Below are positions 44,915-50,064 of a DNA stretch of 64,000 bases, piece by piece. This stretch comes from an uncultured Methylibium sp. (GTDB lineage: Bacteria; Pseudomonadota; Gammaproteobacteria; Burkholderiales; Burkholderiaceae_C). The DNA is taken from positions 19,121 to 83,120 of the forward strand of contig NZ_CADEFR010000013.1 of the NCBI RefSeq assembly GCF_902826655.1, read 5' to 3'. A program made the translations under genes and the position numbers. The notes beneath the pieces are model-generated. The model saw only the letters and a program-made list of their open reading frames with translations. It was not told the DNA's origin and searched no databases. The first letter of the stretch is position 1; each line of letters begins with the position of its first letter.

Positions 44915-45230
44915 GTCCACATCATGCAATGGCGCCGGGACAGCGTCTGCCCGATCGAACGCGCGATCGCAGCGAAGACGCAGCCATCACATTCTCCGCA
45001 TTGCGGAATCGCCTTTTCGTATCGAGAAATTTTATGTTGTTGCGTCACCGCAAAATTTTTCATTGCGGTAGATGGGATTTCGCATACGGAAATTCTGTTC
45101 CTAAATCATTGTTTTTCAACAAGATAATTTCAACTCTTCTATAAGACATAAGTCTTGCCGTACGGCACACGTGCGCTTAGGCTACAGAGCATCCGCTTCC
45201 TCATCACTTTTCATCCAACCGGAGTCCGAC
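44915..45230. promoter_or_regulatory. AT-rich divergent regulatory region between speB and aceA with four dyads
   Basis: A 316-base non-coding gap. The part from 44990 to 45150 is strikingly AT-rich compared with its surroundings. Dyads: ATTCTCCGCATTGCGGAAT (44991-45009), TTTC-N7-GAAA (45015-45029), ACCGCAA-N9-TTGCGGT (45047-45069) and ATTTC-N7-GAAAT (45077-45093). A perfect 12-bp palindrome TGCCGTACGGCA is at 45156-45167. A TATAAG box at 45140-45145 may be the aceA -10. This looks like an operator array for control of the glyoxylate shunt. Confidence 0.6.
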
Positions 45231-46529
<1,299 letters not shown>

Positions 46530-46545
46530 AGCAGGTGCCGGCGGC

Positions 46546-46551
46546 TAGAAT
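46546..46551 (+). promoter_or_regulatory. Candidate -10 box of the thrS transcript
   Basis: TAGAAT 17 bases after the aceA stop and 40 bases before the thrS leader peptide. No recognisable -35 box at the right spacing, so the promoter is a weak call. Confidence 0.4.
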
Positions 46552-46590
46552 CAAGCCTCAACGGCAAGAACGGGAAAGGCACGACGGGTT

Positions 46591-46644
46591 ATGACACCGC
46601 GAACTACGACGACCTTCGACAGGGTTTGTCCGACCGCGGCCTGA
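46591..46644 (+). CDS. Threonine-rich leader peptide of thrS
   Basis: A 17-codon reading frame, MTPRTTTTFDRVCPTAA, too short for routine gene calling. Six of 17 codons are threonine and four (46603-46614) are consecutive (ACT ACG ACG ACC). A GAAAGG ribosome-binding-like sequence lies 11 bases upstream. The reading frame overlaps the antiterminator strand and is followed 23 bases later by the terminator hairpin ahead of thrS. This is the classical arrangement of a leader peptide whose translation senses charged tRNA-Thr. Seen: the codons and structures. Inferred: translation and function. Confidence 0.8.
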   Translation: MTPRTTTTFDRVCPTAA

Positions 46645-46694
46645 GCACGTCTGTTTTTCTCGTCTCGAAGCGCGGTCTCCACCGCGCTTTTTTG
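46632..46694 (+). promoter_or_regulatory. thrS transcription attenuator (antiterminator and terminator)
   Basis: Terminator: AAGCGCGGT (46668-46676) with ACCGCGCTT (46681-46689), CTCC loop, then a run of T residues (TTTTTTG). Antiterminator: GACCGCG (46632-46638, inside leader codons 14-16) pairs perfectly with CGCGGTC (46671-46677), which destroys the terminator. A protector pairing CCGCG (46597-46601) with CGCGG (46635-46639) is also possible. A ribosome stalled at the Thr run would leave 46632-46638 free; one reaching the stop codon would cover it. Confidence 0.8.
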
Positions 46695-46713
46695 TTTGTC
46701 CCAGAGGTTCACG

Positions 46714-48633
46714 ATGGTTTCGATCCAACTCCCAGACGGCTCCCGACGCGAGTTCCCCGGGCCGGTGACGGTCGCCGAAGTCGCCGCATCCATCGGCGCC
46801 GGCCTCGCCAAGGCTGCGCTCGGTGGCCGGATCGGGCAGGGTGCCGATGCCCGGCTGGTCGACACGAGTCATCGCATCGACCACGACGCGGTGCTTTCGA
46901 TCGTGACAGAGAAGGACCCGGACGGGCTCGATCTGATCCGCCACTCGACGGCGCACCTGCTGGCGTACGCCGTGAAGGAGCTGTTCCCGGAAGCCCAGGT
47001 CACGATCGGCCCGGTGATCGAGAACGGCTTCTACTACGACTTCTCCTACAAGCGGCCTTTCACGCCCGAGGATCTGGCGTCGATCGAGGCACGCATGGCC
47101 GAACTCGCGAAGAAGGACGAGAAGGTCGAGCGCCGTGTGCTGCCGCGCGATGAGGCGGTGGCGCATTTCAAGGCGCAGGGCGAACACTACAAGGCCGAGA
47201 TCATCGGCAGCATCCCGGCGGGCGAACAGGTTTCGCTGTACCGCGAGGGCGCGTTCGAGGACCTGTGCCGTGGCCCGCACGTGCCCTCCACGGGCAAGCT
47301 CAAGCACTTCAAGCTGATGAAGGTGGCGGGAGCCTACTGGCGCGGCGACCATCGCAACGAGATGCTGCAGCGCATCTACGGCACGGCCTGGGCGACGAAG
47401 GACGACCTGCAGGCCTACCTGACACGGCTCGAGGAGGCCGAGAAGCGCGACCACCGCAAGCTCGGGCGCGAACTCGACCTGTTCCACCTCGACGAGCACG
47501 TGCCAGGCCTGGTGTTCTGGCATCCGAAGGGCTGGACCGTCTGGCAGCAGGTCGAGCAGTACATGCGGCAGGTGTACCGCGACAACGGCTACCTGGAGGT
47601 CAAGGGCCCGCAGATCCTGGACAAGGGGCTGTGGGAGAAGACCGGCCACTGGGACAAGTACCGCGAGAACATGTTCGTCACGGAGTCCGAGAAGCGCGAC
47701 TACGCACTCAAGCCGATGAACTGCCCGGGGCACATCCTCATCTACAAGCAGGGCATCAAGAGCTACCGCGACTTGCCGCTGCGCTACGGCGAGTTCGGTC
47801 AGTGCCACCGGAACGAGCCGACGGGTGGCCTGCACGGGATCATGCGGGTGCGCGGGTTCACGCAGGACGACGGCCACATCTTCTGCACGGAAGAGCACAT
47901 CCTGCCGGAGTGCGTCGCCTACACGGCGCTGCTGCAGAAGGTCTATGCCGACTTCGGCTTCAAGGACATCGTCTACAAGGTCGCGACGCGGCCTGCCGCC
48001 CGGATCGGGTCGGACGCGAGCTGGGACAAGGCCGAGGCGGCCCTGATGGAGAGCCTGCGCGCGTCAGGATGCCAGTTCACGATCTCTCCTGGAGACGGAG
48101 CCTTCTACGGGCCGAAGATCGAGTACACGCTCAAGGATGCCCTGGGCCGCGAGTGGCAGTGCGGCACGATGCAGGTCGACTTCTCGCTGCCGGAACGTCT
48201 GGATGCCGAGTACGTGGCCGAGGACGGCTCGCGCCAGCGGCCGGTCATGCTGCATCGGGCGATCGTCGGCAGCCTCGAGCGCTTCATCGGGATCCTCATC
48301 GAGCAGCACGCAGGCGCGCTGCCGGCCTGGCTGGCTCCGACGCAGTTGGCGGTGCTCAACATCACCGACGGACAGGCTTCCTACGCCGCAGAGATTGCGA
48401 AAACGCTGCAAAAACAAGGAGTTAGAGTCGCCGTTGATTTGCGCAACGAGAAAATCACGTATAAAATCCGCGAGCATTCCATGCAAAAGCTCCCCTACAT
48501 CCTTGTCGTCGGCGACAAGGAGAAGGTAGCGGGAGCTGTTGCGGTGCGCGCCCGAGGCAATCAGGACCTCGGCGTGATGCCCCTAGAAGCCTTCTCCCAG
48601 AGGATCGCTAGTGACATCACCCGGAAGGTGTGA
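46714..48633 (+). CDS. thrS: Threonyl-tRNA synthetase
   Basis: Protein of 639 residues charging tRNA-Thr. N-terminal TGS domain (residues 1-65, [23 protein letters not shown]), editing domain with [16 protein letters not shown], catalytic class II core ([35 protein letters not shown] with the zinc-ligand Cys) and the C-terminal anticodon-binding domain ([31 protein letters not shown]). An AGAGG ribosome binding site precedes ATG 46714. It is first in the thrS-infC-rpmI-rplT-pheS-pheT-ihfA cluster and appears controlled by the threonine attenuator upstream. Near the 3' end the codon use turns AT-rich over about 110 bases, probably to house the infC promoter. Confidence 0.98.
48439..48467 (+). 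promoter_or_regulatory. Candidate internal promoter for infC within thrS
   Basis: -35 TTGCGC (48439-48444) and -10 TAAAAT (48462-48467) with a 17-bp spacer, inside an AT-rich patch of thrS (about 48390-48500) that uses codons such as AGA, GTT and AAA which are rare elsewhere in this window. An internal promoter for infC in thrS is known in E. coli. Confidence 0.5.
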
Positions 48634-48720
48634 TGCGGCTTGATGTTTGCCGCTCTCCATCGTCCGCGGGTGCGTGTGTGTTGAACGTGAGAGGTCGCAA
48701 GACCCGGAAGGATTCGAACC

Positions 48721-49269
48721 ATCGCTAATTTCTTTGATCGTCGAACCCGGAACGACGAACGCAAGCACCGGCTGAACCGGGAGATCATGGCCCCGGAAGT
48801 GCGCCTCAACGGCCCCGAGAACGAACCCCTCGGCATCGTGAGCATCCAGGAAGCCCTGCGCATGGCTGGTGAGCTTGACGTCGATCTGGTCGAGATCGCT
48901 GCGACGGCCGACCCCCCGGTCTGCCGGCTGATGGACTACGGCAAGTTCAAGTACTCGGAGCAGAAGAAGGCCGCCGAGGCCAAGGCCAAGCAGCATGTCA
49001 TCGACATCAAGGAAGTGAAGTTCCGGCCCGGCACGGACGAAGGCGACTACGTGATCAAGATGCGCAACCTGCGTCGCTTCCTCGAGGAAGGCGACAAGGG
49101 CAAGGTGACCTTGCGGTTCCGGGGCCGCGAGATCACGCACCAGGACATCGGCATGCGGCTGCTGGAGCGGATCCGTGACGAGTTGGCCGACGTCTCGGTG
49201 GTCGAGAACATGCCGAAGCTCGAAGGCCGCCAGATGATCATGGTCCTGGGGCCGAAGAGGAAGAAGTGA
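48721..49269 (+). CDS. infC: Translation initiation factor IF-3
   Basis: Protein of 182 residues that keeps ribosomal subunits apart and proofreads the start codon. N-domain [50 protein letters not shown] and C-domain [40 protein letters not shown] are both complete. The start is placed at the rare codon ATC (48721), 8 bases after a strong GGAAGGA ribosome binding site; this restores the N-terminal segment ([21 protein letters not shown]) that a start at ATG 48787 would lose. Non-AUG starts allow IF-3 to repress its own synthesis. Confidence 0.95.
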
Positions 49270-49278
49270 TTCGAGTTT

Positions 49279-49310
49279 CCGGCGTTGCGGTCTGGTCACC
49301 GCAGCGCCGG
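49279..49310 (+). promoter_or_regulatory. 13-bp hairpin in the infC-rpmI intergenic leader
   Basis: CCGGCGTTGCGGT (49279-49291) pairs with ACCGCAGCGCCGG (49298-49310) with one G-U pair and a 6-nt loop. There is no T-run, so it is not a terminator. It sits about 75 bases before rpmI, where ribosomal protein L20 controls translation in E. coli. Confidence 0.5.
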
Positions 49311-49385
49311 CAAGTGCCCGGAGGCCTGAGCCAAGTCCGCGATCGGTTCGCGGCGCCTCACGGGAACAACGAAGAAGGAGCAGTC

Positions 49386-49589
49386 ATGCCCAAGATGAAG
49401 ACCAAGAAGAGCGCGGCCAAGCGGTTCCGCGTGCGTCCGGGTGGCACCGTCAAGCGGGGCCAGGCGTTCAAGCGCCACATCCTCACCAAGAAGAGCACGA
49501 AGAACAAGCGCCACCTGCGTGGTGCGACCAACGTGCACGAGACCAACATGGGCCACATGGCCCAGATGCTGCCGTTCGCGGGCCTCTGA
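49386..49589 (+). CDS. rpmI: 50S ribosomal protein L35
   Basis: Protein of 67 residues, small and basic, opening [19 protein letters not shown] and ending with the usual hydrophobic [10 protein letters not shown]. It binds the large subunit rRNA. An AAGGAG ribosome binding site precedes ATG 49386. It lies 48 bases before rplT, the invariant L35-L20 pair, and downstream of a hairpin that may be used for L20 feedback. Confidence 0.97.
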
Positions 49590-50028: not shown

Positions 50029-50064
50029 AAGGGCCGAGGCGCGAGCGTCGGCCCTTTGCTTTTT
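50029..50064 (+). terminator. Terminator-like hairpin between rplT and pheS
   Basis: 9-bp stem AAGGGCCGA (50029-50037) with TCGGCCCTT (50048-50056), 10-nt loop, followed by TGCTTTTT. It probably ends many rplT transcripts with some read-through into pheST. No Phe-rich leader frame was found upstream, so it does not look like a phenylalanine attenuator. Confidence 0.7.

Follow-up and report, generated by a model that had tools for sequence, protein, structure and literature searches.

The window, a stretch of 64,000 nucleotides from an uncultured Methylibium sp., carries the gene thrS for threonine--tRNA ligase (ThrRS), and directly before it lie a short reading frame rich in threonine codons and a hairpin followed by a run of T. 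This arrangement raises the question of how thrS is controlled in these bacteria, and whether a ribosome translating the short frame could decide if transcription reaches the gene. The features on which the answer depends are the following.

45171-46529: ORF of aceA (isocitrate lyase), upstream of thrS, ending 137 bases before the hairpin
46546-46551, + strand: TAGAAT, putative -10-like hexamer (by eye)
46572-46579, + strand: GGGAAAGG, purine-rich ribosome-binding segment of the leader frame (alignment A1)
46587-46604, + strand: GGTTATGACACCGCGAAC, 18-base conserved core across the leader start (pattern search)
46591-46644, + strand: leader frame MTPRTTTTFDRVCPTAA, 17 codons, ATG at 46591 and stop TGA at 46642-46644 (direct reading)
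46597-46601, + strand: strand 1, CCGCG, which pairs with CGCGG at 46635-46639 in the ribosome-free fold
46632-46638, + strand: strand 2, GACCGCG, predicted 5′ strand of the antiterminator, pairing with strand 3 (stalled-ribosome prefix fold, cognate-pair test)
46667-46697, + strand: intrinsic terminator hairpin with T-rich tail, stem 46667-46690 (terminator scan)
46671-46677, + strand: strand 3, CGCGGTC, predicted 3′ strand of the antiterminator (direct reading, scan, folds, cognate-pair test)
46703-46707, + strand: AGAGG, ribosome-binding site of thrS (direct reading)
46714-48633, + strand: thrS (TIGR00418, 716.7 bits)

The gene thrS is the first of a cluster in the order thrS-infC-rpmI-rplT-pheS-pheT. 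Its genome has no other full-length thrS match, two further matches being partial and 26-28% identical. Among the closest relatives by ThrRS identity are Piscinibacter, Rubrivivax and Roseateles (83-85%) and a Burkholderiales MAG (86%), and the window therefore probably belongs to this section of the Burkholderiales. Two observations were made further along the cluster. The infC gene, which encodes initiation factor 3 (IF-3), may start at a non-standard ATC at 48721-48723, as read by hand: the frame of the ATG at 48787 extends upstream by 22 residues, and AAGGA at 48708-48712 precedes it. In E. coli, the infC start codon is AUU. In the gap between rplT and pheS (50031-50064), a hairpin GGGCCGAGGCGCGAGCGTCGGCCC followed by TTTGCTTTTT was seen by eye, preceded by a possibly competing hairpin GGGCCCACTGGGCCC; its loop of 10 lies outside the limits of our terminator scan (loop 3-8). 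A hairpin with a T-run likewise stands before pheS in most of the gaps viewed by eye (22 of 60 relatives), and no Phe-rich leader was seen by eye in these gaps or in that of the window. The hairpin before pheS is a candidate for a second attenuator or an internal terminator.

The leader frame of the window contains six Thr codons, at positions 2, 5, 6, 7, 8 and 15, four of which are consecutive at 46603-46614. The terminator has 10 pairs (6 of them G-C), a loop of 4 and the tail TTTGTTTGTC; 23 bases separate the end of its stem from the thrS start, and most of its columns are at least 90% conserved in 46 leaders. Strands 2 and 3 are perfect 7-base complements, and strand 3 consists of part of the terminator 5′ arm plus the first loop base. 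The initial annotation had described the frame, its six Thr codons, the pairing of GACCGCG with CGCGGTC and the terminator, all of which proved correct to the base on direct reading. In dinucleotide-preserving shuffles of the region 46530-46713 (n = 20,000), four Thr codons in a row within a short ORF arose 11 times and a terminator of equal quality 3 times. On the + strand between 46450 and 50110, the scan, which admits loops of 3-8, found no second terminator-like site, and a search of 45800-49500 against Rfam at E-values up to 1 matched no family, T-box and Thr_leader (RF00506) included. A scan for the sigma-70 consensus found no promoter; by eye, TAAAAT-like hexamers are placed similarly to the putative -10 hexamer of the window in several relatives, and we infer a transcript start near 46558.

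To see how widely the leader occurs, we gathered 80 loci with ThrRS, 78 of which include the thrS start. With the window counted, 47 of the 79 upstream regions contained a strict core, ATGAC.CC.CG.AC; the MTPRT start of these strict-core leaders is a result of selection. By a wider definition (MTPRT start or variant), a leader precedes thrS in 51 of the 78 close relatives; there were 52 leader calls, one of which (L045) is spurious and by eye represents a decayed leader in which ATG has become ATA. A covariance model of 46 leaders scored 98 bits at the site in the window, and no other site of the same genome exceeded 19 bits; the second-best match (19 bits) was, by eye, only a terminator-like hairpin and was rejected as another leader. 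When the model was run on 300 genomes of the order, the best 30 matches all lay directly before thrS. Weaker matches are no measure of abundance, and the 120 of 300 genomes matched at E 0.01 overstate the element; among 40 stretches read (39 weaker or secondary model matches, and L142 from the core search), 19 had thrS and 21 had no thrS in the stretch examined.

Within the order, the core GGTTATGACACCGCGAAC, with at most one mismatch, was found in 46 of 399 genomes, a single time in each, spread over 8 families and including 11 of 12 genomes in the window's own family (own genome counted) and 11 of 12 in family f8, compared with 1 of 399 for the reversed pattern. Loci could be read for 33 of the 46 core-bearing genomes, and in all of them the core was upstream of thrS. 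It was absent from all 271 genomes searched from other orders of the class, and the thrS attenuator proposed below thus appears restricted to this order, as far as sampled.

The leaders have the parts expected of a ribosome-mediated attenuator. A short ORF that is predicted to be translatable is accompanied by a ribosome-binding segment: positions G8-C14 of the first sequence of alignment A1 are kept at 90% or more, and in 82 of the 100 leader calls the ATG is preceded by AAAGG, GAAGG or AGGAA. An intrinsic terminator lies between the leader and the first gene in 99 of the 100, L033 being the one without. The length of 17 codons is a local feature, 12-13 codons being found in 58 of the 100; because the TCGGCCGCG/GTTTAG stop of the near relatives L007, L008 and L024 is absent in the window (by eye), its frame enters the antiterminator strand. 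Two sequence variants were observed by eye outside the frame. A repeat like TAGCTACNAAATTNATAG, possibly an intergenic repeat of Polaromonas/Rhodoferax types, lies between leader and terminator in L006, L026, L047, L069 and L074. The terminator arm AAGTGCGG replaces AAGCGCGG in 11 loci (L075, L080, L083, L116, L117, L124, L132, L133, L135, L140 and L163), and in 9 of these (not L116 and L124) the other arm is the matching CCGCACTT, a compensatory change within the terminator stem.

Relatives that keep thrS and lack the Thr run and the paired strands had been named in the initial annotation as evidence against attenuation, and in part this is what is seen: the leader is absent in 27 of 78, and 51 keep it. 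Among the 26 relatives without a leader call, 18 retain a GCGCGG-type hairpin and a T-run near thrS. In ten leaderless loci (L013, L016, L018, L029, L034, L035, L046, L049, L051 and L058), the hairpin GCGCGG...CCGCGC (or ACGCGG) with its T-run lies directly before thrS, and a TAAAAT-like box begins 24-30 bases upstream of the hairpin. The absence looks like lineage loss of the leader, and lineages that have kept the hairpin and lost the leader would be natural experiments on attenuator decay.

If the leader senses threonine, its Thr codons should matter as codons. After the conserved core, Thr accounts for 180 of 674 in-frame codons (26.7%) as opposed to 8 of 574 and 18 of 574 in the other two frames, and the in-frame count exceeds that of shuffled sequences (180 versus 90.6, z = 13.9; z = 7.1 for 38 mutually dissimilar leaders). 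Synonyms are mixed at codon 6 (ACG in 28, ACA in 18 and ACC in 12 of 92 leaders), and leaders without an MTPR start, namely MAVRTTTTHP, MAFRTTTTGISTLA, MIQAPRTTTASERQ and MFRTTLTGS, retain consecutive Thr. Because the enrichment is confined to one frame, the synonyms vary and Thr is kept in groups without MTPR, we conclude that the Thr codons are selected as codons, and the amino acid in question is that of the controlled gene, thrS. Their number varies from 1 to 9 per leader and is most commonly 4; of 100 leader calls, 21 contain no more than two, and in 28 no two are adjacent. The six Thr codons of the window with their run of four are at the high end, and the long run of the earlier description is not what the relatives conserve.

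The second requirement is a pairing that excludes the terminator by using its 5′ arm. In the 47 strict-core leaders, the duplexes of strands 2 and 3 were stronger than those with shuffled spacers (Wilcoxon p = 1 × 10−12; 18 of 47 individually at 0.05), as were the duplexes of strands 1 and 2 (p = 4 × 10−10; 13 of 47 at 0.05), in a test whose simple terminator finder misplaced at least L036. The window alone gave p = 0.075 for strands 2 and 3 and p = 0.87 for strands 1 and 2. Because the spacers are G+C-rich, which does inflate pairing at single loci, such single-locus shuffle tests are underpowered. Over 99 leaders, the energy of strands 2 and 3 was −14.6 kcal/mol compared with −12.1 kcal/mol in shuffles (p = 1.5 × 10−15; 23 of 99 at 0.05), and a control with reversed strand 3 was not passed (−14.2 versus −14.6 kcal/mol for the real strand, p = 0.14). 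This control is weak, since reversed GCGCGG still complements CGCGCC-like segments.

Because the reversed-strand control was not passed, we ran a cross-species cognate-pair test, in which strand 2 was found to prefer its own strand 3 over that of other species (interaction −1.24 kcal/mol, z = −6.0, 99 loci). The preference was seen in 56 leaders of own-family types (z = −3.0), in the 43 others (z = −4.0) and in 29 dissimilar leaders (z = −3.4, p = 0.001), with permutations that leave some relatedness in. In L074, the terminator arm reads AGCAGCTTCTG in place of AGCGCGG, and the best partner contains CAGAAGC, the complement of GCTTCTG (p = 0.06 alone). RNAalifold on A1 recovered the terminator with hardly any covariation (2 of 11 pairs changed on both sides, covariation term −0.13), because strand 2 cannot be aligned across groups. 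The initial annotation had asked for a test of compensatory changes in related Burkholderiales, and covariation of the paired strands was found by the cognate-pair test; the window has its perfect 7-base complementarity. Together with the frame-specific Thr enrichment and the placing of the antiterminator next to the stop of the leader, the covariation favours the attenuator reading.

In 86 of 99 leaders, the strand 2 match starts between −16 and +12 relative to the leader's stop codon, where a ribosome at the stop would mask strand 2 and a ribosome stalled on the Thr codons would leave it free. We folded the leaders with assumed ribosome footprints, the first free base being 16 after the start of the P-site codon. 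With a ribosome at codon 6 of the window and RNA up to the terminator loop, GACCGCG:CGCGGTC forms (−20.7 kcal/mol); with a ribosome at the stop, only the terminator forms; and with no ribosome, the terminator forms as well, alongside pairing of 46597-46601 with 46635-46639. Averaged over 99 leaders, the probability that upstream RNA has captured the 5′ arm while the 3′ arm is still to be transcribed was 0.83 for the stalled ribosome, 0.61 for the ribosome at the stop and 0.49 for ribosome-free RNA; it was higher in the stalled state than at the stop by more than 0.1 in 59 of 99 leaders and lower by that margin in 4. The geometry of stall and stop proposed in the initial annotation agrees with these folds. 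When the full leader was folded with a stalled ribosome, the terminator was still more stable (P = 0.96 in the window, mean 0.90 over 99). Because the model favours the terminator at equilibrium even under stalling, the switch would be kinetic, set by the order of folding.

From the leader sequences and these folds, we consider it very probable that the element is a ribosome-mediated transcription attenuator of the trp/his/pheM type, through which the availability of charged tRNA-Thr determines transcription of thrS. We infer a promoter, ribosome stalling, termination and a response to threonine, which would be connected as follows. Transcription would begin near 46558, and a ribosome would translate the MTPRTTTT... 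leader. When charged tRNA-Thr is short, the ribosome would stall on the Thr codons and cover strand 1, and strand 2 (46632-46638) could capture strand 3 (46671-46677) before the 3′ arm of the terminator exists; with the antiterminator formed, polymerase would continue into thrS and perhaps into infC-rpmI-rplT-pheST as well. When tRNA-Thr is charged, the ribosome would reach the stop at 46642 and cover strand 2, and the terminator would form. With no ribosome on the leader, strand 1 would pair with strand 2, and the terminator would again form. These bacteria probably sense threonine shortage at thrS by a stalled ribosome, as judged from the conserved leaders and the modelled folds.

Thr coding alone leaves one property of the leaders unaccounted for. 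In 92 leaders, codons 2-5 are frozen even among synonyms (ACA for 84 of 84 Thr, CCG for 91 of 91 Pro, CGA for 78 of 82 Arg and ACT in 82 of 92), and synonymous sites are free from codon 6 onward. The reason may be the pairing of strand 1 or a second input; pairing with a variable strand 2, however, does not obviously demand that codons 2-5 be invariant. A switch with two inputs, in which stalling on Thr codons is combined with a putative binding site in the frozen AAGAGCGAGAAAGGC...GGTTATGACACCGCGAACT (for example for ThrRS, or for dedicated initiation control), is an unlikely elaboration suggested by this conservation. Occupancy of the frozen segment would block leader translation and force termination, and one switch would then read both the synthetase level and tRNA charging. 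The idea that the segment UGGUUA mimics the tRNA anticodon was dropped after inspection by eye, no flanking stem being seen and the base before GG being variable.

The same GGTTATGACACCGCGAACT, frozen even among synonyms in 92 leaders, is what would be expected if ThrRS or another factor bound the segment around the leader start as in E. coli and the Thr codons were incidental. Against such feedback, which we regard as very unlikely, stand the enrichment of Thr codons after the core in a single frame with varied synonyms and the absence, by eye, of any stem presenting an anticodon-like loop or a tRNA-like arm. No short ORF with three or more Thr codons was found in the 400 bases before E. coli thrS, although TTTTT occurs there at a distance of 55 bases from the gene, and to our knowledge the E. 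coli design includes no terminator with a covarying antiterminator. The near invariance of Pro and Arg at codons 3 and 4 of the MTPRT class, together with the two or fewer Thr codons in 21 of 100 leader calls, could instead point to an attenuator that responds to the overall speed of translation or to a different amino acid; yet whole groups have Leu or Pro in place of Arg (MTPLT in 5, MRPPT in 3, MVPPT in 2) with the next codon still Thr, the Thr run but not the start is retained in the distant leaders MAVRTTTTHP, MAFRTTTTGISTLA and MIQAPRTTTASERQ, and the controlled gene is the Thr synthetase, so that we give an input other than threonine even less credence.

It is scarcely credible that the hairpin is a mere transcription terminator of aceA beside a Thr frame that arose by chance, even though aceA ends at 46529, only 137 bases upstream, and 15 leaderless relatives have aceA upstream, several of them with the hairpin. 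With a stem ending 23 bases from the thrS start, there is no room for a thrS promoter behind it. Because the leader is kept with no aceA match in the locus in 34 of the 49 leader calls with at least 450 upstream bases (one of them, L045, spurious), the hairpin goes with thrS and not with aceA. Moreover, 28 leader calls have a tRNA-Val(GAC) gene within 450 bases upstream. This tRNA gene occurs within that distance of thrS in 30 of 127 upstream regions, the same 28 included. Examples from other families are L109, L113, L114, L124 and L135, and the order tRNA-Val(GAC)-thrS may be the older arrangement. This neighbour raises the question of whether leader transcripts begin at the tRNA promoter.

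The proposed threonine-sensing attenuator can be compared with several known systems. In E. coli, the thrS protein represses its own translation through a tRNA-like leader, a textbook case of translational feedback. That operator serves the same gene and the same physiological goal as the leader described here; it differs in that the 400 bases preceding thrS in K-12 contain no short frame rich in Thr, whereas the present element has a predicted translated leader and a terminator. The thrS and thrZ leaders of Bacillus subtilis are T-boxes, in which uncharged tRNA binds the RNA directly. They resemble the present leader in having a terminator before thrS and in induction by threonine starvation, but no T-box match was obtained at the leader in the window. 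A survey by Lopatovskaya et al. (2010) is said, to go by its title, to cover attenuation in bacterial amino acid and aminoacyl-tRNA operons, and may already contain the thrS case; among the matches listed in our literature search, no title or abstract start mentioned leader-peptide attenuation of thrS in this order. Judged by these sources, the thrS case is new, and its kind, the classical ribosome-mediated attenuator, is already known.

The leader terminators and processing of B. subtilis thrS/thrZ are described in PMC3997798. In PMC2965389, E. coli threonyl-tRNA synthetase is named once, among autoregulated proteins, and the word thrS does not occur. The study in PMC3766115, whose groups include Burkholderia and Ralstonia, names four leaders, His, Trp, Thr (RF00506) and Leu, as the amino acid attenuators it had to draw on. 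Lopatovskaya et al. 2010 (Mol Biol 44:128) is cited in PMC4833913.

Closest in design are two groups of E. coli attenuators. The trp, his and thr leaders share the architecture of strands 1:2, 2:3 and 3:4 and a leader stop that adjoins strand 2, but they control biosynthetic operons, and here it is a synthetase gene. The pheM-pheST attenuator likewise has a short leader rich in cognate codons, a terminator directly before synthetase genes and an alternative antiterminator; it differs in its amino acid and gene, the present leader standing before thrS at the head of a cluster that also carries pheST. If our reading is correct, initiation factor 3, two ribosomal proteins and PheST could all be downstream of a threonine-sensing switch, and stalling of a ribosome on the leader would be a third wiring of thrS, beside the feedback of E. 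coli and the T-box of Bacillus.
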